DNA from: Nitrosopumilaceae archaeon
Lineage (GTDB): Archaea > Thermoproteota > Nitrososphaeria > Nitrososphaerales > Nitrosopumilaceae
DNA length: 38,738 nt
Direction: 5' to 3'
Assembly: GCA_900620265.3 (NCBI GenBank)
Contig: UYNY03000008.1
Coordinates: 1 to 38,738 of the forward strand
Both the position numbers and the translations under genes were made by a program. The notes under the pieces are model-generated. The model was not told the origin of the DNA. It did no database searches and was given only the letters and a program-made list of their open reading frames with translations. Of the stretch, positions 14,315 to 38,577 are shown piece after piece. Positions within the stretch are counted from its first letter, which is position 1; each line of letters begins with the position of its first letter.

Positions 14315-16375
14315 CTACGGGCCCACCACATGCACGGTCCTGTACGCGATCGAGGTGGCCCCGCGCCCCTCGCACGAGTACTCAATATGGTACAGCCCCG
14401 GCCTGCCGGTGTCGAGCCCCGACGCGTCGGCCTCTGCGTCCCACGCCCCGTCAGGATCGACGCAGGTGACGCCGGGCTCGACATACTCTGCCAAGACCGG
14501 GTGGTCCACCTCGACGGGCCCGGTAAAGTTGATCGACGGGGCGAACGCCGTGCCGCCGGCCTGCCCGTGGACGACCATGCGCGGCTCCGGCCTGATGCCA
14601 AGATCATCAGACGAGCCCCCCCGGTATTGCCGCAGATCCTCTGGCTCGCCGATGAAAAAGTTGTCAAACCAGAACTCGAACTCCCTGTCGGGGGCGTCGC
14701 GCAGCACAAAGCCGACCCCCACCGTTACAGAGTCCGAGATAGTGATGCTGGGCGATACCCCGCTGCCCAGCCCCGACCACGAGTTTGCCGTGTACGACTG
14801 GCCGTATCCCGGATCAAAGGTGCCTGGTCGCGATATGAACACCCTTATCGCGGGAAACTCGTAGCTGATGCTCCCCGTACTGTATTCCACCGGGTATTTG
14901 GATCCTCCCAGGCCGTCAAAGCCCGCGTAGAGGCCCCCCGTCACGGCTGACTCGAGCTCGAACGTCTTCTCGATGTATCCATACACGTTGTCCCCGTGCC
15001 CCGCCAGCCTGGCCGACGGGGCGGGGTTCCCGACGCCCTGGTCGAGGGACAGGGTAAAGTTCTCCCGGTACTCGCCCCACGGCACGTACCACCCGTAGGA
15101 CGTATACCGCAGCGACCTGTACTCCCATCCCCCCAGGTCCTCAAAGCCGTCCGTTATAGGCAGCTCGTACACCTTCCGCTGCACCTCCACCACGAACCTG
15201 TGCTCGGCGGTGTTCCCGGAGGCGTCGGTCGCGTTAAAGACCACCGTGGTGTTGCCGACGGGGAAGACATCCCCCGGATCATGGGTGCTCAAGACCGCCA
15301 CGTCAGGATCCGCCACATCCGAGGCTGCCGGCGCGGTAAAGTTCACCGCCGCCCCATCCTTTGACGTGGCCCGGTGGCTTGAGGACCCGGGGGGATCCAG
15401 GAATGCGGGCGGGGTCGTGTCCGTGATCGTCACAAGCTGCGTCCCCGAGATCGTTACCGTCCCGTCAGTCGCCGTCCACGTCACCGTGGTATCGCCGACG
15501 GGGAACGCGTCGGGGGCGTCGTTTGATATGGACGGGGCCGGATCCCACGCCTCCGGCGTCAGCAGCCCCCCGAGGAACACCCTGGTCAGCGGGGCGGCGG
15601 CCTCCCGCACGATATCATCAGGCACGGTTATGTACAGCTCCGGGGGTTGCGGCGTCACGGCCGATGCCTCTGCCAGGGTGGACCTCCTGCCGGCCTCTGC
15701 CACCGACACGACGTATTCCGTATTGGCATCAAGCCCCGCAAAGATCTGCAATGTCTCTGGCGTCCTTGATATCTCGAGCACGTCACCGCCCGGCCCTGCC
15801 AGCGACACCCTGTACGTCGGATCACCGGAGAGCGGGTCCCACGATGCCCGTATCTCGTCATGCATCACCTCCAGCACCAGCCCCCTTATCCGCCGCTCCT
15901 CCACCCGGACCACCATCTCATGGACGGCGGTGTTGCCAGAGTCGTCCGTCGCGGTAAACACCACGGTGGTATCCCCGGGGCGGAACTTTGAGCCCTGTTT
16001 GTGCGATGATACAACATCCACGTCAAGATCCACCGCGTCAACCGCGACAGGAACCGGGAAATCCACCTGCGTCCTCTTGCCGGTCCTCTCCGCCACGTGC
16101 ACGGCCGGGGCGTCCACAAAGAACGGCGGGTCCACATCCCGGGCCGTGACTATCTGCCTGTACGACTCGTACTTGCCGTCATCATGGGTGACCAGCCACA
16201 GCACCACGGTATCACCGATCACGACCATCCCCGGGGCGTTGTGCAGGATCTTGTACGAGCCATCCACGGGCGGGACGGCCAGCAGCCCGTGGTCCAGCGG
16301 GGTGAGCGGGCCCGTCGCGTTGATGTACAGGGTGGGAAGGTCCTCGAGGGCGTGGGCGGGCAGGGCGAGGCCCGG
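14315..16375 (-). repeat. Left arm of ~2 kb inverted repeat
   Basis: Coding copy 1 read on the minus strand matches 17866-19923 on the plus strand. The arms are very similar in the first ~1.1 kb of the gene and in the last ~250 bp, and weak in the variable segment. Confidence 0.8.
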
Positions 16376-16429
16376 CAGGACGAGGCCCAGCAGGCAAAGA
16401 CACGCGGCAGCCACGAGCACCCCCGACAT
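14315..16429 (-). CDS. Secreted multi-domain HYR/FN3 surface protein (704 aa), inverted copy 1
   Basis: Start ATG 16429 is set by the AT box at 16452-16458, 26 nt upstream; the frame is open further up without signal-peptide character. Residues 1-28 form a signal peptide (hydrophobic core, ending LPAHA). Then come an Ig-like region, a HYR domain (DTTVVFTATDDSGNTA), a fibronectin III-like domain, two more HYR domains (DTTVTWTATDG, NTTVVFNATDASGNTAEH), a jelly-roll-like variable segment (PITDGFEDLGGW to FWFDNFF) and a C-terminal DUF5011-like domain (YVEPGVTC, GRPGLYHIEYSC, RTVHVV). No membrane anchor is visible at the end. A role in adhesion or surface coat is likely. It pairs with the copy at 17809-19923. 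Confidence 0.85.
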   Translation of the reverse strand: MSGVLVAAACLCLLGLVLPGLALPAHALEDLPTLYINATGPLTPLDHGLLAVPPVDGSYKILHNAPGMVVIGDTVVLWLVTHDDGKYESYRQIVTARDVDPPFFVDAPAVHVAERTGKRTQVDFPVPVAVDAVDLDVDVVSSHKQGSKFRPGDTTVVFTATDDSGNTAVHEMVVRVEERRIRGLVLEVMHDEIRASWDPLSGDPTYRVSLAGPGGDVLEISRTPETLQIFAGLDANTEYVVSVAEAGRRSTLAEASAVTPQPPELYITVPDDIVREAAAPLTRVFLGGLLTPEAWDPAPSISNDAPDAFPVGDTTVTWTATDGTVTISGTQLVTITDTTPPAFLDPPGSSSHRATSKDGAAVNFTAPAASDVADPDVAVLSTHDPGDVFPVGNTTVVFNATDASGNTAEHRFVVEVQRKVYELPITDGFEDLGGWEYRSLRYTSYGWYVPWGEYRENFTLSLDQGVGNPAPSARLAGHGDNVYGYIEKTFELESAVTGGLYAGFDGLGGSKYPVEYSTGSISYEFPAIRVFISRPGTFDPGYGQSYTANSWSGLGSGVSPSITISDSVTVGVGFVLRDAPDREFEFWFDNFFIGEPEDLRQYRGGSSDDLGIRPEPRMVVHGQAGGTAFAPSINFTGPVEVDHPVLAEYVEPGVTCVDPDGAWDAEADASGLDTGRPGLYHIEYSCEGRGATSIAYRTVHVVGP

Positions 16430-16451
16430 CCCCCGGACGGTGAGGACAAGG

Positions 16452-16458
16452 TTAATTA
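16452..16458. promoter_or_regulatory. Shared bidirectional TATA element
   Basis: TTAATTA at 16452-16458 is the only AT-rich patch between divergent starts at 16429 and 16483. It is centred 26 nt from one and 28 nt from the other, so it can serve as a TATA box in both directions. Confidence 0.55.
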
Positions 16459-16482
16459 GCGTACCCTCCGTGGAACCTGTCC

Positions 16483-17808
16483 GTGGACGCCCGGATCTAC
16501 GCCCTCCTCGCCGCGTCTGCAGTCCTGCTGGTCCCCGCCGCATACGCGGCCCCCTCCATCACGGCTCCGCCCGATATCACCATGGAGGCCGAGTTCTTCT
16601 TTACCCGGGTGGAGATCGGCGTCCCGGCAGCCGATCCCGGGCACCGGATATCCAGCAACGCCCCGCCGTTCTTTCCCGTCGGCAGCACCATCATAACGTG
16701 GATGGCAGACGACGGGCACGGGGGACGGACGCTTGACACCCAGAACGTCACGATAACCGACTCGTACCCGCCCGCATGCCAAAAGGACGCCGTCAGCGGC
16801 CCGCACCGCTCGGAGACCGGCAGGAGGATCGCGGTCGACGTCGAGCCGCCCCGCGTAAGGGACGTCGCCGACATCAGCCCGGAGGTGGTCCTCGTCGACG
16901 GGAGGGACCGGTACCCGGTCGGCAACACGACCGTCACGTTCGCGGCGACGGACGCCAGCGGCAACACGGCAGAGTGCCCGGTCACCGTCATGGTGGCCAT
17001 ACCGGATATCAACCTGGTGCTGCACCCGTCACCTGACTCCATCCGCGCATCATGGGACGGCGGCGGGCAAAAGTACAAGATCGTGCTGTATCTTGCGGGG
17101 GAGGAGATAAGGAGCGCGAGCACCGGCCGGCCGGGGCACGTCTTCTCCGGGCTGGAGCCGGGAACAGGGTATACGGTAAAGGTCTCGCTCTCAAAGCACC
17201 CAAGGGTGCACGCCGAGGCGTCGGCCACGACCCCGCGGCTGCTTGACATACGGGACGGCCTTGTGGACGGGTGGACGCACCACGCGACGACGCTCGAGCC
17301 GGGGTTCAACAGGTACGTCTTTACGGTAAACCAGTCGGTCGGCAACCCCGCCCCGTCGGCCATGATATCGGGCGACGGGGAGAATACCAGCTCGAGGATC
17401 GAAAAGTGGCTTGATACCTCCCCGTATGCCGGCGGCCCGCTGTACCTCGGCATCGACTACATGTCGGGGGGAAGGACGCTCGTCCAGTTCGTGGTGGACG
17501 CCGGGGACGGCACTGCAAGGTACGTAAAGTCGGCGTGGGCCGACGGTACGTGGAGGTCGCACGCGGCCGACATCTCAGGGGCGTTCACGCCCGGCGGGAC
17601 GGCCCGCGTCCAAATATACCTGTATGATACGGGACCCGGGGGGCATACCATCCACCTTGACAACCTCGTCCTGTCCGGCAGGGATCCTGGCAGGGATCCG
17701 GGCGTTCGCGGCGGGTCGGCGGGAGGCCCGCTGGATGACCTTGACGCGTCGCTGCCCGGGACGGGCGACCCGACCGCGGCGGTGCTGGCGTGGATGGGTG
17801 GCAGGTAG
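16483..17808 (+). CDS. Secreted HYR/FN3 protein (441 aa) between the inverted copies
   Basis: GTG 16483 is 28 nt from the shared TATA element and opens a signal peptide (IYALLAASAVLLVPAAYA, cleavage near residue 22). Two HYR domains follow (GSTIITWMADDGHGG and NTTVTFAATDASGNTAE), a fibronectin III-like domain (about 178-250), then a jelly-roll-like domain (DGLVDGWTHH, SVGNPAPSAMISGDGE, HTIHLDNLVLSG) equivalent to the variable segment of the flanking proteins. It lacks the terminal DUF5011-like domain and ends in a short Gly/Asp-rich tail. The next gene starts immediately after its stop codon with no spacer, so both are likely co-transcribed. Probable extracellular or surface component. Confidence 0.85.
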   Translation: MDARIYALLAASAVLLVPAAYAAPSITAPPDITMEAEFFFTRVEIGVPAADPGHRISSNAPPFFPVGSTIITWMADDGHGGRTLDTQNVTITDSYPPACQKDAVSGPHRSETGRRIAVDVEPPRVRDVADISPEVVLVDGRDRYPVGNTTVTFAATDASGNTAECPVTVMVAIPDINLVLHPSPDSIRASWDGGGQKYKIVLYLAGEEIRSASTGRPGHVFSGLEPGTGYTVKVSLSKHPRVHAEASATTPRLLDIRDGLVDGWTHHATTLEPGFNRYVFTVNQSVGNPAPSAMISGDGENTSSRIEKWLDTSPYAGGPLYLGIDYMSGGRTLVQFVVDAGDGTARYVKSAWADGTWRSHAADISGAFTPGGTARVQIYLYDTGPGGHTIHLDNLVLSGRDPGRDPGVRGGSAGGPLDDLDASLPGTGDPTAAVLAWMGGR

Positions 17809-19923
17809 ATGAGGATCCCGGGCACGGTACTGGCCGCATGCATGGCCGTGGCATGCCTTGGTCTGGCCCTGCCCGCCCACGCCCTCGAGGACCTTCCCAC
17901 CCTGTACATCAACGCGACGGGCCCGCTCACCCCGCTGGACCACGGGCTGCTGGCCGTCCCGCCCGTGGATGGCTCGTACAAGATCCTGCACAACGCCCCG
18001 GGGATGGTCGTGGTCGGTGATACCGTGGTGCTGTGGCTGGTCACCCATGATGACGGCAGGCTGGAATCGTACAGGCAGATAGTCACGGCCCGGGACGTGG
18101 ACCCGCCGTTCTTTGTGGACGCCCCGGCCGTGCACGTGACGGAGAGGACGGGCAAGAGGACTCAGGTAGAGTTCCCGGTGCCCGTCGCGGTTGACGCGGT
18201 GGATCTTGACGTGGATGTTGTATCATCGCACAAACAGAACTCAAAGTTCCGCCCCGGGGATACCACCGTGGTGTTTACCGCGACGGATGACTCTGGCAAC
18301 ACTGCCACCCATGAGATGGTGGTCCGTGTAGAGGAGCGGCGGATAAGGGGGCTGGTGCTGGAGGTAACACATGATGAGATACGGGCATCGTGGGACCCGC
18401 TCCCCGGTGATCCGACGTACAGGGTGTCGCTGGCAGGGCCGGGCGGTGACGTGCTCGAGATATCAAGGACGCCAGAGACATTGCAGATCTTTGCGGGGCT
18501 TGATGCCGATACGGAATACGTGGTTGCAGTGGCGGAGGCGGGAAAGAGGTCGACGCAGGCAGAGGCCGCCGTCACGACGCCCTCGCCGCCAGAGCTGTAC
18601 GTGGTCGTCCCCGAGGACATAGTGCAGGAGGCCGCCGCCCCGCTGACGAGGGTGTTCCTTGGGGGGCTGCTGACGCCGGAGGCGTGGGATCCTGCCCCGT
18701 CCATATCAAACGACGCCCCCGACGCGTTCCCCGTGGGCGATACCACGGTGACGTGGACGGCCACCGATGGCACGACGACGATCTCGGGGACGCAGCTGGT
18801 CACCATCACGGACACGACCCCACCCGTATTCTCCAACCTGCCAGAGTCGTCCACGCATGTGGCGACATCAAAGCAGGGGATAAGGGTGAACTTTACCCTG
18901 CCCGCGGCCTCAGACAAGGTGGACTTGGACGTGGCGGTCTCTAGCACGCATGATCCGGGGGACCTCTTCCCGGTCGGCAACACCACGGTGGTGCTCACAG
19001 CGGTTGACGCCTCGGGGAACACCGCCGAGCACAGGTTCGTGGTGGGGGTGGACCACAGGGTGCTCGAGTTCCCCATAACGGACGACTTTTCAAGCCTGGA
19101 CGGGTGGGAGTTCAAGACGATGCGGTTTGCCTATGCCGAGAGCTTTGAGGGGAGGACGTACTTTAGCAACCTTACCCTGTCCCTTGATCCCGATGTCGGG
19201 AGGCCAAAGCCGTCGGCCAAGATATCCGGGGACGGGGAGCTCGTCTTTGCGTACATCCAAAAGACGTTCGAGCTCGGGTTTCCCGTGGACTATCAGCTAA
19301 GCGTGGGCTTTGAGAGCATGTTCGGGCACGATCACGCGGTGGAGCGCCGTCCCGGGTATGTCGGACACGACTTTCCGGTTCCGAGGATATTCGCGTACGT
19401 CCCGGGCACGTTCCACCCGGGGTTTACATATTCATACACCACAAACACGTGGGCAACCCCCTCCATTAGCGAGCCCCGGCTGATGGGCTCTGACACCGTC
19501 GTGGTGGGAATCGGCGTCATCCTGCTAGACGCGTCGGACCGGCAGCTCGAGTTCTGGTTTGACAGCTTCGCCCTCAGCGACAAGGGGGAGGACCTGCGGC
19601 GGTATTATGCCGGCTCGTCGGACGACCTCGGCGTCAGGCCCGAGCCGCGCATGGTCGTCCACGTGCCGGCCAACGACCCCACATTCGTGCCGTACGCCCC
19701 GTCGATCAACTTTACCGGGCCCGTCGAGGTGGACCACCCGGTCTCGACCGTGTACGTCGAGCCCGGCGTCACCTGCGTCAGCCCGGAGGGGGCGTGGGAT
19801 GCAGAGGCCGACGCGTCGGGGCTCGACACCGGCAGGCCGGGGCTGTACCATATCGAGTACTCGTGCGAGGGGCGCGGGGCCACCTCGATCGTGTACAGGA
19901 CCGTGCACGTGGTGGATGGGTAG
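17809..19923 (+). CDS. Secreted multi-domain HYR/FN3 surface protein (704 aa), copy 2
   Basis: ATG 17809 directly follows the previous stop. Signal peptide residues 1-25 (VLAACMAVACLGLALPAHA). Domain order equals the inverted copy: Ig-like, HYR (DTTVVFTATDDSGNTA), FN3-like (about 188-265), HYR, HYR (NTTVVLTAVDASGNTAEH), variable jelly-roll-like segment (PITDDFSSLDGW to FWFDSFAL, about 420-600), DUF5011-like C-terminus (VDHPVSTVYVEPGVTC, RTVHVVDG). The N-terminal two thirds are almost identical to copy 1 at DNA level, including 147 identical bases (17866-18012), while the variable segment has diverged strongly. This mosaic suggests gene conversion plus selection for diversity. Likely exported to the cell surface. 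Confidence 0.85.
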   Translation: MRIPGTVLAACMAVACLGLALPAHALEDLPTLYINATGPLTPLDHGLLAVPPVDGSYKILHNAPGMVVVGDTVVLWLVTHDDGRLESYRQIVTARDVDPPFFVDAPAVHVTERTGKRTQVEFPVPVAVDAVDLDVDVVSSHKQNSKFRPGDTTVVFTATDDSGNTATHEMVVRVEERRIRGLVLEVTHDEIRASWDPLPGDPTYRVSLAGPGGDVLEISRTPETLQIFAGLDADTEYVVAVAEAGKRSTQAEAAVTTPSPPELYVVVPEDIVQEAAAPLTRVFLGGLLTPEAWDPAPSISNDAPDAFPVGDTTVTWTATDGTTTISGTQLVTITDTTPPVFSNLPESSTHVATSKQGIRVNFTLPAASDKVDLDVAVSSTHDPGDLFPVGNTTVVLTAVDASGNTAEHRFVVGVDHRVLEFPITDDFSSLDGWEFKTMRFAYAESFEGRTYFSNLTLSLDPDVGRPKPSAKISGDGELVFAYIQKTFELGFPVDYQLSVGFESMFGHDHAVERRPGYVGHDFPVPRIFAYVPGTFHPGFTYSYTTNTWATPSISEPRLMGSDTVVVGIGVILLDASDRQLEFWFDSFALSDKGEDLRRYYAGSSDDLGVRPEPRMVVHVPANDPTFVPYAPSINFTGPVEVDHPVSTVYVEPGVTCVSPEGAWDAEADASGLDTGRPGLYHIEYSCEGRGATSIVYRTVHVVDG
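17866..19923 (+). repeat. Right arm of ~2 kb inverted repeat
   Basis: Counterpart of 14315-16375. The spacer between the arms (about 1.5 kb) holds the shared promoter and the 441-aa gene, so recombination between arms would invert them. Confidence 0.8.
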
Positions 19924-20149: not shown

Positions 20150-22057
20150 ATGGAAGAAGCGAAAGTTACCAATAACTCCACTGCAAAAAAGAACAAGTCA
20201 ACGTATGAGAAGCCTGTATTTGTATTTCGAAAGTGGTTCCTCATTATTTGGATTCCGAGTATAGTGTTAACTGCTCTCATGGTGTCGCCACTTCCAATTA
20301 CATCTGATCCTAATGATACTCTTAATCCGTTTCATATCGTTGCGGAGATTCATAATACCATATTTGACTTAACACTTGGAATTACATCTGATTCTGATAA
20401 TATACAAGATTTGTTGTATATAATTGCAGAAATTCATGCAATGGTGTTAACTGTGACACTTGGAATTACATTGCTAGGTCTGCAATTTAGAGCACAATCA
20501 TATACTATGGTTGGTATGATAGAATATGTAAATGACAAAGTGGTATATGGATTTATCACAACATTTGTACTAATGACAATCATCAGTATTGGCCTAGCAA
20601 TGTCATATGACAAAATAGAGGATCTACAAATAATTATCAAGATTATGCTTGTTGGCACATTTGCATCGTTGTGCTATCATGCCGGTTATGTATATCATAT
20701 GATCTATAAATTACAGCTTTCACAAATGTTTGATGATACTATTAAAAAAATAGAAAAAAACATTGGCAATATTGAAGAATTTACTGGAAAAGACGATGAA
20801 TTTATCAAACCATTTCAAATATGGCAGGGAATAATGATCAAGGCATCGGAGACTCATAACCTCCCAGAATTTAAAAATGGATTAAAAGAGATCTTTAAAG
20901 TAATTGAAGAGAAACAAGAGAAAAGTAGAAATAAACAGGATCAATATGTAAAAGATCGACGGGCTAAAATTGTAGACTGTATAGAAGATGTGCGCCAAAC
21001 TTGCATGACGGAAAAACAATATTTATTTTTAAATGAATTTATCTGTAAATTTGAATCAATATATAAAAATTTCATCGACAAATATGATGATACAGAATAT
21101 GGAAGCAGAGGTGAAATAATTAAAAAATTCGAGGAAATGATTTGCAGAACCATCGATGATAATGAGTATGGTTATTCTGAAGATTACTTAAATAGATTAT
21201 TTAAAATGTACTGGGATGAAAAGTTGAGTGACAGTGAACGTTATGATTTACAGAATAATATGATATTTACTGTAAACAACATTGTTAATTATGCAATAGC
21301 CAATAAGAGTAAAACCACATCAATATTTATAAATTTATTAATAAATAACAAGGAGAATAATATACCAACTGTAGATAATGCTATGTCAAATAATAATAAT
21401 TTTAGAGGAGATACTGTTAAATTCAATGATCCAGATCAAGCTACCCTTTGGCCAGATTTTCCTAAAAATCCCCATCGCGATGATACTAAGAGCTGGATTA
21501 TACGTGTGCGCTGGTCTATCACATTGACTAGATGTTTGCAGCGAATGACATTAGAGATTATAAGTTCCGGAAAATTGTATGAACTTTACACTATTTTTCG
21601 TGTGATGGAAGATTTAATCGAGAATTACTATATGAGCACTTATAAAATAATATCTACTAATCCAGATCTTGATAAAAATTTACATTATGCATTAATCGAA
21701 GAATTTAACAAATATATAAAAAGCAAATTATCTAATTCAATATACGATCATGATTATAGAATTCTTGATATAATTATATCCTATGTTGTTGGTGTATCAA
21801 AATATCTAGATATAAAAATATCCAAGACTGTTGATGCCTTCGATCCCAATATATTAGCACAAATTAAATATAAAGAAAAATGTTTTGAAATATATTCGGA
21901 AATTATTAAATATAGTTTAGAGAAGGCCCGAAATTTAGGCGATGTTGAGGCTGAGAAACTTATTTCAGATCTCATCAATAGCATCCAGTGTGTGGAAATA
22001 TTGCCTAATATGTATGCCTGGTCGCGAGTGGATCATACGGCCGGCAACTCTGACTAG
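20150..22057 (+). CDS. AT-rich membrane protein with large cytoplasmic domain (635 aa)
   Basis: The gene starts at ATG 20150, just after a Shine-Dalgarno-like GGAGGG and a TATA box. After a charged N-terminus come membrane helices at about residues 28-46, 94-112, 128-148 and 160-180, then about 450 residues of charged, helical soluble domain. The segment HAMVLTVTLGITLLGLQFRA followed by another helix recalls DUF2254-type membrane proteins, but the match is weak. Residues 50-105 contain a 28-residue tandem duplication (see repeat). Codons are overwhelmingly A/T-ending (AAT, ATA, AAA), unlike all neighbours, so recent acquisition from an AT-rich genome is likely. Function unknown. Confidence 0.8.
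   Translation: MEEAKVTNNSTAKKNKSTYEKPVFVFRKWFLIIWIPSIVLTALMVSPLPITSDPNDTLNPFHIVAEIHNTIFDLTLGITSDSDNIQDLLYIIAEIHAMVLTVTLGITLLGLQFRAQSYTMVGMIEYVNDKVVYGFITTFVLMTIISIGLAMSYDKIEDLQIIIKIMLVGTFASLCYHAGYVYHMIYKLQLSQMFDDTIKKIEKNIGNIEEFTGKDDEFIKPFQIWQGIMIKASETHNLPEFKNGLKEIFKVIEEKQEKSRNKQDQYVKDRRAKIVDCIEDVRQTCMTEKQYLFLNEFICKFESIYKNFIDKYDDTEYGSRGEIIKKFEEMICRTIDDNEYGYSEDYLNRLFKMYWDEKLSDSERYDLQNNMIFTVNNIVNYAIANKSKTTSIFINLLINNKENNIPTVDNAMSNNNNFRGDTVKFNDPDQATLWPDFPKNPHRDDTKSWIIRVRWSITLTRCLQRMTLEIISSGKLYELYTIFRVMEDLIENYYMSTYKIISTNPDLDKNLHYALIEEFNKYIKSKLSNSIYDHDYRILDIIISYVVGVSKYLDIKISKTVDAFDPNILAQIKYKEKCFEIYSEIIKYSLEKARNLGDVEAEKLISDLINSIQCVEILPNMYAWSRVDHTAGNSD
20297..20464 (+). repeat. Two 84-bp in-frame tandem repeats
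   Basis: 20297-20380 and 20381-20464 encode 28-residue units that begin ITSD and end TLG, each with [IV]AEIH in the middle. The DNA copies have diverged but keep blocks such as ATTACATCTGAT. Confidence 0.7.
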
Positions 22058-22643: not shown

Positions 22644-23747
22644 TCATGAATTCAGTCGCGGTCTGGGGTTCTGACCATGATGTGGGGCGTACTCCCGCCC
22701 GTCCGCCAGCATGCGGAAGACCGCCCGGAGTATCTTGGCCCCGGTGGCCACCCTCGCCTTTGGCATCCCTCTGCCCTCGGCGAGCCTCTCATAGAACCGG
22801 GTGAACGCCGTGTCCCTCGCCACCCTGACGTGGGTCATGGCCACCTGCACCGCCGCGTGCCGGAGCAGCGAGTCGCCCCTCTTGGTTATGCCGCCCCCGC
22901 CGCGTACCTTGCCCGCCGAGCCGCGCACCGACGGGGCCAGTCCCGCGAACGAGACCAGCTGCCCGGGGTGCCGGAACCTCGTGATGTCGCCGATCTCCGA
23001 GACGAACACGAGGGCCCAAAAGTACCCCACGCCCGGGATCTTCTTGAGCCGCATGGCGTCGTCAATCTCCGACGCCCTCGCGGCTATCCTGATGTCCAGC
23101 ACGCCCGCCATCCCGTCCAGCGTCCGGATCATGTCAAGATAGTTGTCAATCCTGTAGTCCTTCAGCCTGCGCAGGTTGTCGACGAACTCCTCGCTCCAGG
23201 CGTGCCCCTTTACCTTCGTGCCCGCCTGCAGCAGTATGGACCGTATCTTGATCTTGTACGTCGTGCGGCTGCGTGACACGGACTGCCTGTGCCTCACGAG
23301 CTCCCTGTCCTCGGCCGTCTGCCTGTCCGGCACGTACGAGGATATGATGGCGTCGTCCCTCAGCATGGCGGCGAGCACCCGGGCGTCCACCTTGTCGGTC
23401 TTCTTTGACATCGCTATTACCTTGTTGTGGAACGGGCCGGACACGACCAAATCCAGGCCGAGGTCGTCCAGCATGAACTCGGTGACGCCCTGCGAGACGG
23501 AGGATGCCTCGAGCACGTACCTCGTCCTCTTCGGGAACCTGGCCAGGAACCTCCTTATCTTGTTCCTGTCGTTGGCGACCTTCTCCTCCAGCAGGATCTT
23601 TCCAGACTTGTCTATGGCCGCCACCTGTAGGAACGCCTTGTGCAGGTCTATCCCCACGTAGACGTCCGCCTCCTTCCTGACGCGGCAGTCCACTGCCGTG
23701 CCCGCCGCCCTGACCACCCGGATCCGGCTGGCCGTCCTCGCCCTCAT
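22644..23747 (-). CDS. IS110-family transposase (about 367 aa)
   Basis: IS110 recombinases are DEDD enzymes with a RuvC-like N-terminus and a C-terminal domain carrying a catalytic serine. Visible here: YVGIDLHK (first Asp), VLEASSVSQG (Glu), KKTDKVDARVLAAML (two Asp), then the C-terminal part with IPGVGYFWALVFVSEIGD, FAGLAPSVRGSAGK and KRGDSLLRHAAVQVA, where the serine region is intact. The frame is open to 23894, but residues before ATG 23747 are low in complexity, so this start is preferred; GTG or a later start near the YVGID motif is possible. Length fits the family. The gene appears complete, so the element may be active. Insertion near other duplicated DNA fits a mobile region. Confidence 0.9.
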   Translation of the reverse strand: MRARTASRIRVVRAAGTAVDCRVRKEADVYVGIDLHKAFLQVAAIDKSGKILLEEKVANDRNKIRRFLARFPKRTRYVLEASSVSQGVTEFMLDDLGLDLVVSGPFHNKVIAMSKKTDKVDARVLAAMLRDDAIISSYVPDRQTAEDRELVRHRQSVSRSRTTYKIKIRSILLQAGTKVKGHAWSEEFVDNLRRLKDYRIDNYLDMIRTLDGMAGVLDIRIAARASEIDDAMRLKKIPGVGYFWALVFVSEIGDITRFRHPGQLVSFAGLAPSVRGSAGKVRGGGGITKRGDSLLRHAAVQVAMTHVRVARDTAFTRFYERLAEGRGMPKARVATGAKILRAVFRMLADGREYAPHHGQNPRPRLNS

Positions 23748-23890
23748 GCCGGCCCCCCCACCCGTGGTAATCTGTCTCTTTGGAATCCTGCGGTTATCGT
23801 ACCCCGCCCGCTTGCGTGCCGGTGCCTTCCCGGCCGTCCTCCCGGCCGGCCCCCCATCCCCCCCGTCTGGGGTCCCCGCTCGCGATGCCT
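23748..23890 (-). ncRNA. Candidate bridge-RNA end of the IS110 element
   Basis: In the IS110 group the non-coding end upstream of the transposase encodes the bridge RNA that pairs with target and donor DNA. The only non-coding space upstream of this transposase before the next gene is these ~140 bp. It contains GC-rich self-complementary pieces (CCGGCCGTCC, CCCGGCCGGC). No specific fold was demonstrated, so this is a position-based suggestion. Confidence 0.25.
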
Positions 23891-24223
23891 TCACATACGG
23901 TTAAGGTCGTACCCACGCGGGTCGCCCCGGGATCTGCCCGTCTCGTCGAATCGCCAGAACCTGATGAGCAGCCCGGATCCGAACGCCAGTTCTCCGATGT
24001 TCATAGCATCGGCCGGTACCGCCCGGATCTTCCAAATTTTACAAATAGAGCCGTCGCAATTCTCAAAACGGGAATCCTCGGCGGCATGCCCAAGGCACCT
24101 CATGGGAGTCCCGTTCAGGGGGGTGCCGTCCCCCATCCGGTTATGTACGATGAACCGCGTGCCGTTTATCATGGACGACATGGGCTCCCTGGCCGGCCCC
24201 GTCCCCGACGGCCCGCCAGGCAT
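23891..24223 (-). CDS. Hypothetical protein (110 aa)
   Basis: ATG 24223 is chosen because an ACATATCC patch (minus strand, near 24249-24256) lies about 30 nt upstream; the frame is open to 24403 without protein character. Residues from about 15 on look genuine: MSSMINGTRFIVHNRMGDG, FENCDGSICKIWKIRAV and LLIRFWRFDETGRSRG. Two cysteines in NCDGSIC are close enough to pair or bind metal. It ends about 140 nt before the IS110 transposase start, on the same strand, so it could be cargo or a flanking gene. Family unknown. Confidence 0.45.
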   Translation of the reverse strand: MPGGPSGTGPAREPMSSMINGTRFIVHNRMGDGTPLNGTPMRCLGHAAEDSRFENCDGSICKIWKIRAVPADAMNIGELAFGSGLLIRFWRFDETGRSRGDPRGYDLNRM

Positions 24224-24330: not shown

Positions 24331-24722
24331 TTGGACCTGACCGGGGCCACGGCCACTCCCATAGGGACCATCGTCCCGCCGCTCGAGAGGGTCCCGGTAT
24401 CAAACCTGCGCGTCGTGGATAACTTTGGCTCCACGCTTGATACGGTCCAGGTGGACCAGCAGGTCCAGGTCACCGCGGATCTTACCAACGGCCAGACGAG
24501 GGACCAGGCGTTCGCCTATCTCGTCCAGATCCAGGACGAGGACAACGTGACGGTCCACCTGGCATGGATATCAGGCAGCGTCGCCGAGGGCCAGTCATTC
24601 AGCCCGTCAGTCTCGTGGACCCCGGCCGCCTCCGGCACGTACACTGCCACCACGTGTGGGAGTCCGTATCGAACCCCGAGGCCCTCTCGCCCCCGGTATC
24701 GCTTGAGATCACGGTCAGCTAG
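24331..24722 (+). pseudogene. Frameshifted copy of the Ig-like secreted protein gene end
   Basis: From TTG 24331 the frame reads ERVPVSNLRVVDNFGSTLD, then TADLTNGQTRDQAFAYLVQI, matching the CARDB/Ig-like module of the gene at the left edge. At about 24654 four bases are missing relative to that copy (ACCACGTGTGGGAG against ACCACGTTCGCGTGGGAG), which shifts the frame. The original end is still readable in the shifted frame up to TAG 24720-24722. No upstream signal peptide or promoter is visible, so the 5' part is also missing. After the shift the open frame runs for over 2 kb through the GC-rich block only because stop codons are rare there. Confidence 0.75.
24500..24722 (+). repeat. Direct repeat of window positions 1-227
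   Basis: The first 64 bases are identical to 1-64, and the rest agrees apart from scattered substitutions and the 4-nt gap, on the same strand 24.5 kb away. Confidence 0.8.
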
Positions 24723-27433
24723 GCAGCCGCTACCCCTGGCGTACCACGACCTGTTGTTGATCACGTCCGGCGGCGCGACCCCGGATCACGGACTGGCCGC
24801 CAGACGTGGACCGGCCCGTCGTGGTGCCGATCCCCCGGATGGCAGGCACCCCCCCAGGATCCCCTCCTGCCGCAGCTCCCCCGGGCGGTCCGGATCCTGC
24901 GGCCGGCCCCCCCTGGATGCCGTTTCACGGGCCCAATCCTGGCGCCAGCCGGGGCACAGATCCCGGGACCGCGCCGGGACTGGAGGACCTCCGCGCGGCA
25001 CCGGCCCCTGCCCGTACGGGCATGATCCGGTGCACACAAGCGCCTCCGCGGACCGCCCCCGGTGCCGCGGAACCCCGTCCCCGGATCCAAAAGCCGCCTC
25101 CACGCGCCGCGTCCGGCATCCCTTCCATCCCATACGGCCCTGCGCGCGTATTCAATACTCCCGTCACCGCCTGTTATGGGGCTGCAAGGATCCCGGCCCC
25201 CCCCGGGCCGTCATCGGACCCGTCAAAGTCGTCGGATTCATGCAACCCCGCGGTTCTTCCTCCCGCCGCCACCGTGCCATCGTCCGGCCGGTGGCGCCAT
25301 CCCCGGATCCCCCCCGATCTCACGCGGGGCGCCGCCGGAATGCCCGCCAGGGTGGTTACCCCCCCGGGATCGCCGGGATTCTTGATGATATATCCGGCAG
25401 GATCCACATCCGGGATCAAGCCGTCCCCCCGCAGCCGCATATGAAAAGACGCCTGCCACGCAGCACGCGCGGCCCCGGTCTCCCGGGGGATCCCGTTCCC
25501 GCCGGATTGCCGGGCATGGCAGCTCACGGCCCGTCCCCGGCGTCCGCACCCGCCCCCCCGTTCCCGCCGGGGGCCGGCCCCCTGCGGCCGCCCCGGCCCC
25601 CCGTCCTGCGGGCGCCCGTGGACACTCGTACAATCCCGGGGACATCTGCGGGTATCCGATCCTGCCGCCGCGGGACCGGGCGCGATACGCCGGACCCCCG
25701 CGGGCCGCCATCGCGGCAATCCCCCGCGGGGACCGCGCCCCCCCGGTGCCGCCGCGCCCGCCTCCCGCGCGATCCCGGCGCCGCCGCCCGCAGGCCCCCC
25801 GCAGGATCCCAGGTGCCCCCCGGGCCCCCCGCGGACGCCCCGCCAAGGGGGCCGGCAGCCCCCCGGGGATCCCGCGCGCGCCGGACGGGACCCCCGCGGG
25901 TCTTTCAGGGTGCCGGCGGCCCCCGGCCCGTGCACGCCGGGGCCGCCGCGCCCGGGCCCATGATCCCCCAAAAGCGCCCAGGGGGCGCCCGGCCCGTGCC
26001 GCCGGACGCATGGCATGCATGGCAGGGATCGCGGCAGGCCGCAACCGGGCATGCCCGGGGGCGCCGGCCCCGGAACCGGCCCCGGCCCGGGGACGGTGCG
26101 GGAGCCCGCAACGGTGCAAGGGCCCGCGGGGCCGGCCATGTCCGGGACGGCCCGGATCCCGGCCGGCTCCTGCGCGGTGGACGCGGACGGACGGGGGATG
26201 CCCGTGGCGCCCCGGCGGCATGGCAGGCGGGGGTCCCTGGCGGGGTTGGCGCCGCGCCATGCCCCGCGTCGATCGCCTGCCCCCCGGGCGGCACGGGCGC
26301 ATCCCCCCCGGCCGCGCGACAAGGGCCGGCCCCCGCGTCCCGGCCCTGCCGCAGGGACCGCCGCAGGGACCGCCGCGTCCGCAGCGGCGATCCCCTGCCC
26401 GTGGCCCTGGGGATCAACCGGGGCCGTCAACGGCAGGCCGGCCCGTGCCGGCGGGGGCCGGCCCGGGGGATATGGCCGGGGATCAGGGGCGCGCACCCGG
26501 GGGCCGTTCACCGGCACGGGCCGGCCGGCACGGCCCCGGTAACCCCCCCGCGGGGCCGGACAACGGGGGGCGGCAGGCTGCGCATTCCCCGGATGCCGGG
26601 GATCGCCCCTGGGTGCCAAGCCCCGTGGATGGCGCCGGGCGGGCCGCGCCCCCGTCCGCGCCCGCCAGAAAGCACCCCGGCCGCGCCCCCCGCCGGCAGG
26701 GGGGGACCGCATGCGGCCGGCCGCCGTGCGGGGGAGCGCCCGCCAGAGGCCGGGCCCCCCATGTGGGACGCGGGGCCGTCCATGACGCGCCCCGTGACGC
26801 GGCACCGGGGGGCGGCAGGACGCGGGCGCCCGGGTCCCGAGGGGGGGGACCAGGCACCTGGTGGCCGCCGCGGGGGCATAAACGGCGATGGAATGCCGCA
26901 GGATGCGCGATCAGGGGCCGTGGCGGCAGTCGTGGTTGTCCTGCCGCCATCCGGCGGGCCGCCCGGCCCCGGGACCGCCGCACGATCCGCCCCTGCAGTG
27001 ACCGCCCGGGTATCGTCCCTGATGCGGGGCGGGCCCGGTCCCCGCCGGCGCCCCGTGCGCGCATGCGGCAATACGGGGATGGGATCCGCGGGCCGCGGCC
27101 TGGTCCGCTGCCTGGTCCGCGGCCTGATCCCCGCAACCCCCCCGCGGATGCCGCGGTGATGACGCCCCCCATGGCCACGCCCGCGGCGCACGGGCCTGCC
27201 ATGCCGGGGCCCTGCCCCCCGTCCGGCCGGCGCGCGCCCCGGATCCTGCCACGGTTCCTGCCGGATATGCCGGCGCCGGATGCCGCAGCGGCCCCTGCCG
27301 GAACCGGCCACGCGGGCGCCGGTACCGGGGCGGGCCCGCGCGGGGGACGGCCGGCCGCCGGATCCGGGGCGCGGCGCCCGGCAGGTCCCCCTGGCCCGCC
27401 GGTATCATCCCGGCGGCACCGCGGCCGCGTGCC
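24723..27433. other. 2.7 kb extremely GC-rich block without convincing genes
   Basis: By eye well over 70% G+C, with many runs of C or G, CGG/CCG/GGATCC words and almost no AT patches. Very long frames are open on both strands and in several registers at once, but all translate into Pro/Arg/Gly/Ala-rich low complexity, which is what a stop-poor GC-rich sequence produces by chance. No TATA-like box, RNA gene or tandem repeat was found. It lies between a frameshifted copy of the Ig-like gene end and a further relic of it, so it may be decayed DNA driven by GC-biased change. Confidence 0.6.
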
Positions 27434-27486
27434 GGTATCAGACCCGGGGGCCCTCTCGCCGTCCGTATCCATCGAGATCACGGCCG
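27434..27486 (+). pseudogene. Third relic of the Ig-like gene end
   Basis: GGTATCAGACCCGGGGGCCC followed by TCTCGCC, then CGAGATCACGG, aligns with the last 50 bases of the copies at 1-227 and 24331-24722. Most differences are toward G or C. Confidence 0.5.
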
Positions 27487-27727
27487 GCCAGGCGGTACCA
27501 TTCTGTCCGGACGGCCCCCGGCCCCGATAACTTTACAGAACCCCCCTACCCGGCCCGTGCATGGCAAGGCAGAGGAACGGCCCCGGCGCCGCCCCCCAGG
27601 CTGGAGGCCGGCCGCACGGGCTCCGCGGCAAGGCGGTCGTTCCCGCGGGCGGCGCATGCGCCGCAGCACCTGGCAGGGGAGGGATCCCGGACGGGTAGCG
27701 GCACGACGGCGGCTCCCGAACCCCTGA
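27487..27727. other. Spacer upstream of the restriction-modification gene
   Basis: About 240 bp, GC-rich; contains the short AT patch TAACTTTACAG near 27528-27538. No gene is supported. Confidence 0.35.
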
Positions 27728-27738
27728 GGGGGGGGGGG
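27728..27738 (+). repeat. Run of 11 G upstream of the restriction-modification gene
   Basis: An uninterrupted G11 tract ends 22 nt before GTG 27761. Such homopolymers slip during replication and can alter promoter spacing or the frame of an upstream start. Confidence 0.7.
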
Positions 27739-27760
27739 TGGACGCGCGGCAAGCCAGGCC

Positions 27761-30541
27761 GTGGTCCGGCTCCGGGCAGAAAAGTTTGCCAGGGACTGGA
27801 AGGGCCAGGACGTAATCGAGGCGGCCGAGTCGCACACCTTTTGGGACGAGTTCTTCCACATATTCGGCATGAAGAGGCGCGACTTTGCAAAGTTCGAGTA
27901 CAACGTCCGCCTGCTGCCGAGGCCCGGCAAGGGCCTCTCGGGGCGCATCGACCTGTTCTGGCAGCGAAAGCTCCTCGTGGAGCACAAGAGCCCCGGCAGG
28001 GACCTTGACGAGGCCGACAGGCAGGCCCTGAGGTACTATGAGGGCCTGGACGCGGACATCAGGCCCCAGTACGTCATATCGTGCGACTTTAACTGGTTCC
28101 GGCTGCGGGACCTAAAGTCCGGGGGCGACACGGTATTCGAGCTAGAGCACCTCCCATCGATGCTCGGGCACCTTGGCTTCATGTCGGCCGGCGCGGACAG
28201 CGAGACATACGACGAGGAGATCAACCAAAAGGCCGCCTACAAGATGGACGCCATATACGACCTGCTCAGCAAGGAGGACTATGGGGAGGACCTGCTGGGC
28301 ATGTGGCTGGTCCGGATAGCGTACTGCCTCTTTGCCGAGGACTCTGGGATCTTTGAAAAGAACCAGTTCCGCGAGTATATCGAGAGGTATACGCGCCGCG
28401 ACGGCGGGGACCTTGGCTCCGAGCTCAACCGGATCTTCACCGTCCTTGATACCCCGCCCGGCAAGAGGCGCAGCATGCCGGCCGACCTCGGGGCCTTCCG
28501 GTACATCGACGGCGGCCTCTTCAGCGACCGGCTCGAGGAGGTGTTCTGCAGCAGGGAGATCCGCGAGGCGATCCTGGCAGCCGCCGACTTTGCCTGGGAC
28601 GGCGTATCCCCCTCCATATTCGGCAGCATGTTCGAGGGCATGATGTCCGGGACGGAGCGCCGCAGGTACGGGGCCCACTATACCACCACCAGGAACGTCC
28701 ACAGGGTCATAGACCCGCTCTTCATGGACGGCCTGTACCGCGAGTACGGCCAGATAGTGGGGTCCGACGGGACGCGCAACGAGAAGAGGTCGGGGCTCCT
28801 CCGCCTGCAGGACCGGCTCCGCTCCCTCCGGTTCCTGGATCCCGCCTGCGGGTCGGGCAGCTTTCTGATAACCTCCTACCAGGACCTCCGGACGCTGGAG
28901 CTTGACATCATCCGGTTCTGCCACCGGGAGGCCGTCATCCGGGACTCGACCGTCCTCTCAAAGGTCAACGTGGACCAGTTCTACGGGATCGAGCTAAAGC
29001 CCTATGCCGCCAAGATAACCGAGGCGGCCATGTGGATGGTGGACCACATCGAGAACCTCAAGATCGCCAACCACTTCGAGGGGGCAGAGCTCCGCATACC
29101 CCTGAGGGAGCACGCCACCATCCGCGTGGGCGACGCCCTGGAGGTCGACTGGAACGACGTGCTGCCCGGCAGGGACTGCTCCTACATCATCGGCAACCCC
29201 CCGTTCGGGGGCGGCAACCAGGGGGGCGGCGGGCCCGATCAGACAAAGCGGATAACGGGGCACGGGGACCTTGACTATGTCTCCAACTGGTTTGTAAAGT
29301 CGGCAGAGTACTGCAATGAGAGGTGCAGGGTCGGCCTCGTATCCACCAACAGCATAATCCAGGGGGAGCAGGTGGGGGACCTCTGGCCCACGATCCTTGA
29401 CAAGCACGGCATGCGGATAATATTCGGGTATACGCCGTTTCCATGGATGACCGACGCCAGGGACGCGGCACGCGTGCACGTGGTGATACTCGGGCTCTCA
29501 AAGACCCATGCGACAACCAACCATATCTATGATGCCGGCGGCGGCAGGACCGCCCACAGGTACATCTCGCCGTACCTCAGGGGGTTCTCAAAGAGGGTGC
29601 CCCTGGTGACGGCCTCGCCCGTCCCCGTGAACGGCCTCGGCAGGATCAGGCAGGGATCCACGCCGATAGACGACGGCATGTACATATTCACAGACGAGGA
29701 AAGGGAGGCGTTCCTAAAGAAAGAGCCGGGGGCCGAAAGATACCTGAGGCCGTACATAACGGGAAGGAGCTTTCTCAACGGGGGCGACCGCTGGATTCTG
29801 GAGCTGCGAAACATCAGGCCGAGCGAGCTGGCAGGGCTCGTGCACGTAAAAAAACTAACGGACGAGGTCTCCCGCTACCGCGCCGGCAGGAAGAGGAAAA
29901 ACACCATAAAGCTGGCAAGGACGCCCACCGTCTGGAACACAACGGTCATACCGGAGAGGCCGTTCCTCATACTCCCAAAGGTGAGCAGCCGGGCCCGGAG
30001 ATACATACCGGTGGGGTTCCGGAGCCCCCCCGCAATCCCAAGCGACAAGGCCTTCATAGTCGAGAACGCCACGGCTGACCTCTTCGGGCTGCTCTCGTCA
30101 AGGATGCACATGGCCTGGGTCGAGCTGGTGGCGGGCCGTATGAAGTCGGACTATTCGTATTCCTCCAGCGTGGTCTATAACACATTCCCCCTGCCGGATG
30201 GCGATCTCGGGCCCCTGGCAAGGCACGCCGAAGAGATCCTCCGGATCCGCGGCATGCACGGCGGCCAGAGCCTGGCGGACCTGTACGGCACCCCCATGCA
30301 GCCGGACCTGCTCAGGGCCCACGAGAGGCTGGACGCGGCAGTGGACCGCCTCTACCGCGAGGAGCCCTTTGGCGGCGACCTTGAGAGGTGGGAGTTCCTG
30401 CTGGGCAGGTACGAGGCCATGAGGCTGGGCGGGCTGAGGCGGTTCCGGCCCCCGAGGAAGATCAAGAAGAGGATCCCGCGGCAGCCCGGGCCCGCACCGC
30501 GCCGGCGCGCGGCCGGATCGCCATCCCGAAGGCGATCATAG
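27761..30541 (+). CDS. MmeI-type (type IIL) restriction-modification enzyme (926 aa)
   Basis: A single-chain enzyme expected to methylate and cut DNA. The N-terminal nuclease has GRIDLFWQRKLLVEHKS, where Asp64-x9-Glu74-x-Lys76 fits the PD-(D/E)xK spacing of MmeI. A helical spacer follows, then the N6-adenine methyltransferase with DPACGSGSF (SAM site, from residue 360) and NPPF (catalytic, from 479). The target-recognition region and the family-typical YNTFPLPDG come near residue 810. Length is almost that of MmeI (919 aa). All key motifs are intact, so activity is plausible. GTG 27761 is the first start in frame; no TATA box was found and a G11 run lies just before it. The C-terminal ~40 residues are Arg/Pro-rich. 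It heads a defence-like island. Confidence 0.92.
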   Translation: MVRLRAEKFARDWKGQDVIEAAESHTFWDEFFHIFGMKRRDFAKFEYNVRLLPRPGKGLSGRIDLFWQRKLLVEHKSPGRDLDEADRQALRYYEGLDADIRPQYVISCDFNWFRLRDLKSGGDTVFELEHLPSMLGHLGFMSAGADSETYDEEINQKAAYKMDAIYDLLSKEDYGEDLLGMWLVRIAYCLFAEDSGIFEKNQFREYIERYTRRDGGDLGSELNRIFTVLDTPPGKRRSMPADLGAFRYIDGGLFSDRLEEVFCSREIREAILAAADFAWDGVSPSIFGSMFEGMMSGTERRRYGAHYTTTRNVHRVIDPLFMDGLYREYGQIVGSDGTRNEKRSGLLRLQDRLRSLRFLDPACGSGSFLITSYQDLRTLELDIIRFCHREAVIRDSTVLSKVNVDQFYGIELKPYAAKITEAAMWMVDHIENLKIANHFEGAELRIPLREHATIRVGDALEVDWNDVLPGRDCSYIIGNPPFGGGNQGGGGPDQTKRITGHGDLDYVSNWFVKSAEYCNERCRVGLVSTNSIIQGEQVGDLWPTILDKHGMRIIFGYTPFPWMTDARDAARVHVVILGLSKTHATTNHIYDAGGGRTAHRYISPYLRGFSKRVPLVTASPVPVNGLGRIRQGSTPIDDGMYIFTDEEREAFLKKEPGAERYLRPYITGRSFLNGGDRWILELRNIRPSELAGLVHVKKLTDEVSRYRAGRKRKNTIKLARTPTVWNTTVIPERPFLILPKVSSRARRYIPVGFRSPPAIPSDKAFIVENATADLFGLLSSRMHMAWVELVAGRMKSDYSYSSSVVYNTFPLPDGDLGPLARHAEEILRIRGMHGGQSLADLYGTPMQPDLLRAHERLDAAVDRLYREEPFGGDLERWEFLLGRYEAMRLGGLRRFRPPRKIKKRIPRQPGPAPRRRAAGSPSRRRS

Positions 30542-34863: not shown

Positions 34864-34884
34864 AGGCGGCCTCCGGTGCCCCCC

Positions 34885-36150
34885 GTGTACGATGCCATAG
34901 ACGAGCGGAAGATATTCACCGAGGCCTCCGACCGGCAGATAGGTAGCCTGTGTGACAGCATTGACAAGGGCCGGCTTGACGTCCAAGCCGACTTTCAGAG
35001 AAAGTACGTCTGGGACAACAGGCCAGAGCTAAAGAGCCGGCTCATCGAGTCCGTCCTACTAAAGGTCCCGATTCCTGTCGTATACGTGGCCGAAGACGAC
35101 AAGGGGATGGAGGTGGTCGTTGACGGCCAGCAACGGCTCAGGACCTTCCACGGGTTCCGCAGGAAGGGTGGGTTCAAGCTGAAAAAGCTGCAGATCCTGC
35201 ATGTTCTCAACGGAAAGGGATACGACGAGCTCCCCAATGAAATACAGTCCAGGATCGACGAGTATCCTATAAGGGTCATAAAGATCCAGAAAGAATCGCA
35301 CCGGGATATAAAGTTCGACGTATTCGAGCGCCTCAACAAAGGATCTGTAAAGTTGAACAACCAGGAACTGCGCAACTGCATGTACCGTGGCAGCCTCAAC
35401 TTGTTGCTCATGGATCTTGTGAGCAACCCAGATTTTATGGAAATACAGAACCTACGAAAACCAGATCCTCGAATGCGCGACGCTGAACGGATACTGCGAT
35501 TCTTTGCGTTCTCGGATCGCGGCATCCAGAACTACAAGTCCCCATCGAAGGAGTTCCTGAATCTCTACATGGAGAGGAACAGGGAGATAACGGCCGATGA
35601 GAGAGTAGAAAAGTCCAACCTATTCAAGAAGTGTAGCAGCTTGTGCCGCTCTGTCTTCGGGAATCTAGCTGCACATAGGTGGGTAAAGATGGAAGGCAGT
35701 AACGGCGGATATGTGGCCTCCAAATTCAACGACGGCATACTTGACATGCAGATGCTGGGGTTCAAGGAATATGCCAAGCGAGACATAATGCCCCGCCTCC
35801 AGGTGATCAGAGATGCCTATATCGACCTTGCGTGCACAGACGAATTTGTGGATACAGTGCAGATCGGTACCTATGGGACGAGCCAGACCAAGAGGCGTAT
35901 GGAGATGTGGCTGAACAGGCTTCGTGAGGTGGCTGGTTATCCGTCCGACGACTCCCGATTCTACACGTCATCCGACAAGGATATCCTGTTCAGAAAAGAA
36001 GGAGCCAGTTTGTGCGCCATATGTGGCAACCTTATACTGGACGCGGATGATGCTCACGTGGATCACATAGAGCGCCACTCCGACGGTGGCAAGACGGACA
36101 TTTCAAACGCGCAGCTGACCCACCGCTACTGCAACCTTGGGAAGGGGTAG
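34885..36150 (+). CDS. DUF262-HNH nuclease, GmrSD-like (421 aa)
   Basis: GTG 34885 is preferred on promoter spacing. The N-terminal DUF262 domain shows DFQRKYVW, then VVDGQQRLRTF (DGQQR near residues 80-84), the ParB/Srx-like nucleotide-binding signature, and FERLNKGSVKLNNQELRN further on. A helical middle follows. The last 50 residues are an HNH nuclease with a zinc-binding CAICG, HVDHIERHSDGG and LTHRYCN. DUF262 with HNH is the layout of GmrSD-type restriction enzymes and of phosphorothioate-linked SspE-like nucleases, which cut modified or foreign DNA using nucleotide hydrolysis. All key residues are present, so it is probably functional. It sits between TIR and restriction-modification genes, which fits an anti-phage role. 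Confidence 0.9.
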   Translation: MYDAIDERKIFTEASDRQIGSLCDSIDKGRLDVQADFQRKYVWDNRPELKSRLIESVLLKVPIPVVYVAEDDKGMEVVVDGQQRLRTFHGFRRKGGFKLKKLQILHVLNGKGYDELPNEIQSRIDEYPIRVIKIQKESHRDIKFDVFERLNKGSVKLNNQELRNCMYRGSLNLLLMDLVSNPDFMEIQNLRKPDPRMRDAERILRFFAFSDRGIQNYKSPSKEFLNLYMERNREITADERVEKSNLFKKCSSLCRSVFGNLAAHRWVKMEGSNGGYVASKFNDGILDMQMLGFKEYAKRDIMPRLQVIRDAYIDLACTDEFVDTVQIGTYGTSQTKRRMEMWLNRLREVAGYPSDDSRFYTSSDKDILFRKEGASLCAICGNLILDADDAHVDHIERHSDGGKTDISNAQLTHRYCNLGKG

Positions 36151-37200: not shown

Positions 37201-38577
37201 GTGAAAGGCCGGATATTCATAAGCTGCATCAACAAGGCGGCGATCAGGTATGCCCGGGTGCTTGAAGCCATGCTTAGGGAGGCCGGATATGACCCCTATC
37301 TCTCAGCAGATAACCCCGAATACGGGAGGTATCTCCTTGACAAGATAAAGACCAAGATACGCCGATCCGACCTCGTGATCGGCATCATATCCAACGAGTT
37401 GTCGGTATTCGTGTACGAGGAGCTGGCCTATGCGGAGGACCGGGTGCCCGTAATCCGGATGGTCGAGGCCGGGACACGGGTGGACGCAAGCGGGTTCACC
37501 CATGGCAGGGAGTACGAGCCGTTCGAGGCGGACGGGTTTGAAGCCAGCACCCTCCGGGTGCTCCGGTATATAGAAGAGCGCGGCATCAGGAACCTTCCCA
37601 AGCACCCGGTGCTTACTGATCCGCCTGAGCGAGTCCCCCTGCATGAGCCCGGCTTCAGAGAGTACCCTGCGGGATGGGCCCCCGACCATGTGATGTTCCA
37701 GGTCGGGACGAGGAGGATCCTCCCTGTGGCGGGTAGCGCCCAAAGGCGCCTCTGGCCCCGCCGCCTGTTACGCGGTGCTAGGGCCACGCAGGAACCTAAC
37801 CTGGGAGGAATAGGGGGTGCCGTCCCGGCGCCCGCAGTTGATGTGCAGCGGCGCGCCGGACGACCCCGGGGTCGCCTGCGCGGAGTGGGACGCCCAAAAT
37901 CCGCAGGTACCTGGCCAGATCCTCGTAAAACCGGTTCAAGAAAGCAGACGCTGGTATACGCGAGGATCTCAAAGTCCCTGTATTCTGCAAAGGACACGGC
38001 CGAGAAGTTACTGCTTGAATACAAGGCACGCGACAACCGCAGAGACGGCGAACTGGCCCTACACAGGGCAAAGATCCTGGTACTACAGGATGACCTGTCT
38101 GACCTGTCCGAGGCGTTTGACAGGATAATGAGGACTAGCGGTGATTACCTGCACGACGAAACGCGTTGCCGCATTGAGATGATCTCAAGGCTGTGCAGGA
38201 TCGGACCTGGCCTTTCAAGCAGAAAACCGTCGACAGGCCCCTCGTTCTACGCCGATCTGTTATATGAGATCTCTGACGCCGCTGCAAACCTCATGGACGT
38301 CTTTCCCAAATACCCAGAGGAGCGCATGTTCACAGTATCCTGCGACCGATCGGCATATCCGGTAGGTGGCAAGATCCACGCGTGGGCATGCGCGCCCGAT
38401 GCCGAACACTGGGCCCCCATGAAATTCGAGATATTCGACGGCAAGATGGATATGATAGACGTAAAGATTACCAGCTCCCGGCACAGTCGGCCACCCGGCC
38501 AAAGCATCGCGACCCACGGCGTCAGCTTTAGAATGGATAAAGACCTGTATAGTTACGTGCAAAAGTTTCTGAACTAG
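37201..38577 (+). CDS. TIR-domain protein with C-terminal Ig-like domain (458 aa)
   Basis: GTG 37201 follows a TATA box and a perfect inverted repeat. Residues 1-125 form a TIR domain closely like the one at 30834: RIFISCINK, SADNPEYGRYLLDKIKTKIR, DLVIGIIS, VFVYEELAYAE with Glu74 at the NADase position, VPVIRMVE, HGREYEPFEADGF. Residues 180-245 are Arg/Gly/Pro-rich and look frameshifted or inserted. A helical region (250-345, TAEKLLLEYK, SDLSEAFDRIM) and an Ig/MG2-like beta domain follow (FTVSCDRSAYPVGGKIHAWA, KFEIFDGKMDMID). TIR proteins of this kind hydrolyse NAD or make signalling nucleotides in anti-phage defence. The downstream regions could recognise a trigger. Role inferred. Confidence 0.8.
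   Translation: MKGRIFISCINKAAIRYARVLEAMLREAGYDPYLSADNPEYGRYLLDKIKTKIRRSDLVIGIISNELSVFVYEELAYAEDRVPVIRMVEAGTRVDASGFTHGREYEPFEADGFEASTLRVLRYIEERGIRNLPKHPVLTDPPERVPLHEPGFREYPAGWAPDHVMFQVGTRRILPVAGSAQRRLWPRRLLRGARATQEPNLGGIGGAVPAPAVDVQRRAGRPRGRLRGVGRPKSAGTWPDPRKTGSRKQTLVYARISKSLYSAKDTAEKLLLEYKARDNRRDGELALHRAKILVLQDDLSDLSEAFDRIMRTSGDYLHDETRCRIEMISRLCRIGPGLSSRKPSTGPSFYADLLYEISDAAANLMDVFPKYPEERMFTVSCDRSAYPVGGKIHAWACAPDAEHWAPMKFEIFDGKMDMIDVKITSSRHSRPPGQSIATHGVSFRMDKDLYSYVQKFLN

Follow-up and report, generated by a model that had tools for sequence, protein, structure and literature searches.

High GC content has been noted repeatedly in many sponge-associated Thaumarchaeota, lying at 47–67% in 7 of 11 genomes (PMC7848895), and two reports call for further investigation of its cause (PMC6697440, PMC7848895). 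Directional mutational pressure toward G and C has been proposed for GC-rich symbionts, e.g., Hodgkinia, and has also been raised for sponge Thaumarchaeota (PMC6697440). GC-biased gene conversion was described in bacteria and archaea by Lassalle et al. 2015 (PMC4450053); both are thus already known ideas. Known genome averages reach an upper limit of ~75% GC (PMC4450053). As for the genes that border the locus described below, PDB 8c8k is the solved S-layer protein of N. maritimus, NmSLP (Nmar_1547) (PMC11153153).

The window, by which we mean the whole 38,738-nucleotide stretch of DNA that was analysed, is contig C8 of a Nitrosopumilaceae assembly (GCA_900620265.3; 2.0 Mb, 113 contigs, 96% complete). 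The host, a GC-rich archaeon that oxidises ammonia, belongs to a type frequently encountered in sponges, and this genome, too, probably originates from a sponge. We note three comparisons between a hyper-GC block in this window (Table 1) and the systems above. First, as with directional mutational pressure, a lineage-wide push toward G/C is seen at silent sites, with GC contents in the genus here spanning about 32% to 64%; compared with the portion of that report used here (PMC6697440), the present case differs in being a 3-kb non-coding stretch of 82% GC in which ApT is spared. Second, GC-biased gene conversion (PMC4450053) likewise lifts the GC content of unselected DNA, intergenic regions included, whereas the ApT sparing seen here is not expected of it. 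Third, the relics on both flanks of the block are 3′ ends of the NmSLP family (PMC11153153), but the present genome has multiple paralogues and the copies in the window are broken. Relative to the cited literature, what is new is an archaeal case of long non-coding DNA that has 82% GC and spares ApT; as the direct polarised evidence is limited in size and mixed, we present it as a lead.

Table 1. Features in and around the hyper-GC block (positions are those of the window)
Feature	Position	Strand	Evidence
IS110-family transposase, adjoining the truncated S-layer relic	22644..23894	-	PF01548 E 1.2e-22, PF02371 E 6.6e-22
Left relic, S-layer gene 3′ end	24337..24722	+	91-99% protein identity to S-layer 3′ ends of the same genome, in two frames
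Hyper-GC non-coding block	24723..27433	.	GC profile, no period 3, no called gene, ApT excess
Right relic, final 77 bp of the 3′ end of another S-layer gene	27417..27493	+	Comparison with other copies
GC-rich tail of the same domain, reaching the MmeI-like gene	27494..27760	.	71-80% GC, no called gene
MmeI-like restriction-modification gene, right boundary	27761..30541	+	MmeI N, spacer, methyltransferase, TRD and C domains

The block has a GC content of 79.3%, whereas its surroundings lie at ~61–64%. GC measured in windows showed 67–76% over the first 700 bases, to ~25450, and mostly 79–86% in the core at 25451–27400 (75% at 26851); the stretch is summarised as about 82% GC, and its composition is graded on the left, with no sharp edge. 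Together with the tail, after which the next gene begins at 27761, the GC-rich domain extends over ~3 kb. The called genes of the window have 53–71% GC, none exceeding about 71%, so that an earlier reading made from the sequence alone (the sequence-only reading) was right in calling the block richer in GC than any gene here, and the windowed profile confirms the block as such. Across the first 488 kb examined of the genome, the block is the sole non-coding spacer of at least 200 bp with more than 75% GC, and the other GC-rich runs are nearly all coding, with a clear three-base periodicity. Smaller non-coding islands of 250–300 bp and 79–82% GC occur on contigs C106, C41, C52 and C21, and the block is the largest seen example of these recurring hyper-GC islands. 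A 44-bp stretch just 5′ of the right relic (27333–27376) recurs with 93% identity on C106 (L002 244–287), where a second contig end of this genome is hyper-GC.

The block is non-coding. The range of GC over the three codon phases is 0.03–0.07 in 600-bp windows of the block, compared with a minimum of 0.19 and a median of 0.32 in 20 coding windows of at least 74% GC. A codon model trained on the own genome called no gene in the block, Pfam gave no match in seven frames within or reaching into it, and a search of 94 other genomes of the genus found no homologue except one 44-bp match of 82%. The open frames that had been described as lying everywhere are present, yet they mostly follow from base composition: six frames hold 36 stop triplets, compared with 37.7 ± 6.8 under a dinucleotide model. 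At 811 codons, the longest run without a stop is only slightly long (model mean 529, 95th percentile 760), and the frame at 24331–27159 stays open for 942 codons, which is what one would point to in proposing an unrecognised protein-coding gene in a long open frame. However, with period 3 absent from every 600-bp part, no coding score, no family match in the tested frames and no homologue, we give that proposal almost no credence. The earlier statement that the block lacks gene signals thus stands, and no homologous protein emerged for its frames, either from Pfam on the frames tested or in the 94 genomes.

A functional non-coding element, i.e., a structured RNA, structural DNA or a recombination spacer, could explain why ~3 kb has persisted in a genome of 2 Mb and why the 44-bp stretch recurs at 93% on C106. 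However, Rfam found no match anywhere in the window, RNA folding is ordinary (mean z −0.26 over 44 windows), quadruplex motifs are slightly below expectation (5 vs. 7.6 ± 2.5), tandem repeats are limited to two short stretches, and the block is not conserved in the genus, all of which make such an element very unlikely. The quadruplex and folding results likewise lend no support to the structural spacer that the sequence-only reading had offered as an alternative. Its description of the block as full of C/G runs holds, and the 23 runs of at least 6 compare with 20 ± 3.7 expected and are accounted for by composition.

Judged by sequence similarity, the flanking relics come from the 3′ ends of S-layer genes of the Nitrosopumilus type (PDB 8c8k family). 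The left relic matches PDB 8c8k with an E value of 3.7e-52 over residues 1609–1734 of the 1734-aa chain, i.e., the C-terminus of NmSLP; its upstream part is lost, and a 4-bp deletion near 24657 shifts its frame. The right relic has CAG in place of its stop codon, and its changes are mainly from A/T to G/C. Matching gene-end segments were confirmed at 24648–24724 and 27417–27493, showing that the relics of one gene end that had been noticed on both sides are real, but that the gene is an S-layer gene rather than simply an Ig-like one. Homology 5′ of the right relic ends abruptly, though ~80% identity would remain detectable, which argues that the block is not simply the decayed body of that gene. 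In a comparison of S-layer sequences, the named relatives belong to Nitrosopumilales, and Nitrosotalea is more distant. S-layer paralogues are many and partly in tandem (contigs C8:3, C11:3, C48, C59, C70, C95 and C34).

Several contigs end in S-layer copies (C8:3, C11:3, C59, C70 and C95), and misjoins are liable to arise at such places, which would fit with the block being an assembly or sequencing artefact, e.g., a misjoin at repeated S-layer ends. In a relative, G091, long G/C runs that adjoin N gaps do look artefactual. However, the sequence of the block is complex, its context signature is found on other contigs, the 44-bp match lies on C106, and a misjoin would alter the neighbours of the block rather than its composition, so that we see little chance of an artefact. 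Across the genus, all-G/C 36-mers occur only in four GC-rich genomes; as counterparts of the block they were rejected, since most of the matches listed in relatives are simple repeats or runs next to N gaps. The long G and C runs of G091 (L082 1267–1466) resemble scaffolding artefacts, which account for at least part of its all-G/C 36-mers.

The A/T pairs that survive in the block have a distinct context. Observed/expected ratios of dinucleotides in the core are 3.7 for ApT, 0.48 for ApG, 0.78 for TpA and 1.19 for ApA; such values of TpA and ApA beside the high ApT indicate that the residual A/T is not made of leftover AT-rich patches. The ApT excess is ~2 at the left of the block and rises to 3.4–4.9 in the GC-rich part. 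In other non-coding DNA of the genome it rises with GC content (1.19, 1.24, 1.34, 1.61, 1.97 and 2.19), and it reaches 3.0–3.6 in the hyper-GC islands of C106, C41, C52 and C21; coding DNA of equal GC shows 1.15–1.50, sister genomes of 55–61% GC ~1.25, and low-GC relatives 0.90–1.07. Retention of A/T by context is correlated between the block and four-fold sites (Pearson 0.68, p = 0.0003; Spearman 0.47, p = 0.02). The signature is thus common to the block and to other unselected DNA of this genome, while being strongest in the block, and it links the block with a process acting across the genome and not with a foreign donor. Import from a very high-GC virus, plasmid or bacterium would fit with other foreign-looking DNA in the window (a stretch of 28–30% GC at 20501–22000 and the IS110 element), but blastn against phages and plasmids gave no match for the block, coding periodicity is absent, the ApT signature matches that of the non-coding DNA of the own genome, and the composition at the left is graded; we regard import as improbable. 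Among 65 isolated AT pairs at 25001–27400, 27 lie in GATC and 17 in CATG, compared with roughly 22 and 12 expected with independent flanking bases, pointing to extra palindromes.

The genome, sampled in stretches of about 0.6 Mb in total, with a few short contigs consisting of N, has ~64% GC in those stretches and is the most GC-rich among the samples of the genus, the others of which range from about 32% to 61%, with most of the genus at ~32%. Its four-fold sites have 87% GC genome-wide (per-gene median 89%), close to the composition of the block core (mostly 79–86%). The composition of the block suggests that unselected DNA in this lineage is driven well beyond the 64% average of the genome. 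Counting against this, ordinary spacers of the genome average just about 60–66% GC, indicating that most of its non-coding DNA is off equilibrium and must be younger, constrained or imported. We consider it likely that the block is unselected DNA at the GC-rich, ApT-sparing substitution equilibrium of the lineage. According to this proposal, DNA with no detectable function, situated among broken S-layer gene copies, would have been freed of selection and would then have shifted to the composition favoured by the substitution process of the lineage, about 82–87% GC. That process would convert A/T to G/C in most contexts while sparing A before T, which would concentrate the surviving A/T in ApT, as in GATC and CATG. 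Time and the absence of selection would then be the probable cause of the block's composition.

The direction of substitutions was examined in the right relic at columns that are invariant in seven other S-layer copies. A/T changed to G/C at 7 of 22 A/T sites and G/C to A/T at 2 of 37 (Fisher p = 0.01), bearing out the earlier remark that this relic differs mostly toward G/C; the implied equilibrium is 85% GC, with an interval of 61–97% from nine changes in all. In contrast, the young S-layer 3′ ends, the left relic included, show 12 changes from G/C to A/T vs. 4 from A/T to G/C, so that GC-ward substitution holds for the right relic but not for the young copies. Parsimony over-counts changes from G/C to A/T where sites are mostly G/C; this bias notwithstanding, the AT-ward changes are a real limit on the claim of GC drift. 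The duplicated S-layer spacer on C59 and C70 was rejected as a further polarised test, as its implied equilibria (0.39–0.83) vary with the segment and the outgroup, and decay of the IS110 element was dropped as a test since the element has one copy in the genome.

The same counts bear on whether GC-biased gene conversion, acting on the same dead DNA while mutation itself is AT-biased, drives the composition. This reading differs from the preferred one in the driver only, and confidence in the two overlaps. Recent changes in S-layer 3′ ends that are AT-ward (12 to 4) beside a GC-rich long-term composition are the kind of disequilibrium discussed for biased conversion in bacteria (PMC4450053), and the flanks of the block are repeats in many copies, between whose recombining ends conversion is perhaps intense. 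However, the AT-ward count is inflated by the parsimony bias, and neither ApT sparing nor ApG depletion is expected from context-blind mismatch repair; as the main driver, conversion is possible but rather doubtful. From the neighbour dependence we infer that mutation or repair has a part, and that such context-dependent mutation or repair outweighs context-blind conversion; the AT-ward lean of recent changes speaks for a degree of biased fixation, and mutation pressure and biased fixation may both be acting. The drift under a GC-biased process that the sequence-only reading had suggested is supported by the lack of periodicity, the four-fold GC of 87%, the shared A/T context and the GC-ward right relic.

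More tentatively, the neutral equilibrium of this lineage could itself lie at about 82–87% GC with ApT spared, the block being a natural read-out of the process. If so, this equilibrium would exceed the ~75% limit of genome averages (PMC4450053), and the process alone would explain the rise from ~32% to ~64% GC, e.g., by way of a changed enzyme of DNA repair or replication. Long dead DNA offers a direct view of the fate of unselected sequence, apart from codon use and protein constraint; in the present case, the equilibrium it points to lies well beyond the average of the genome and has a specific context that can be searched for in mutation spectra.

The window also has a stretch rich in defence genes: besides the MmeI-like gene, there are a GmrSD/HNH gene at 34876–36150 and a weak TIR-domain gene at 37201–38577. 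A stretch of ~28–30% GC at 20150–22057, which carries a weak DUF2254-like membrane protein frame, was probably imported from an AT-rich relative. Three HYR/Ig-like domain genes at 14315–19923 may encode surface or host-interaction proteins.
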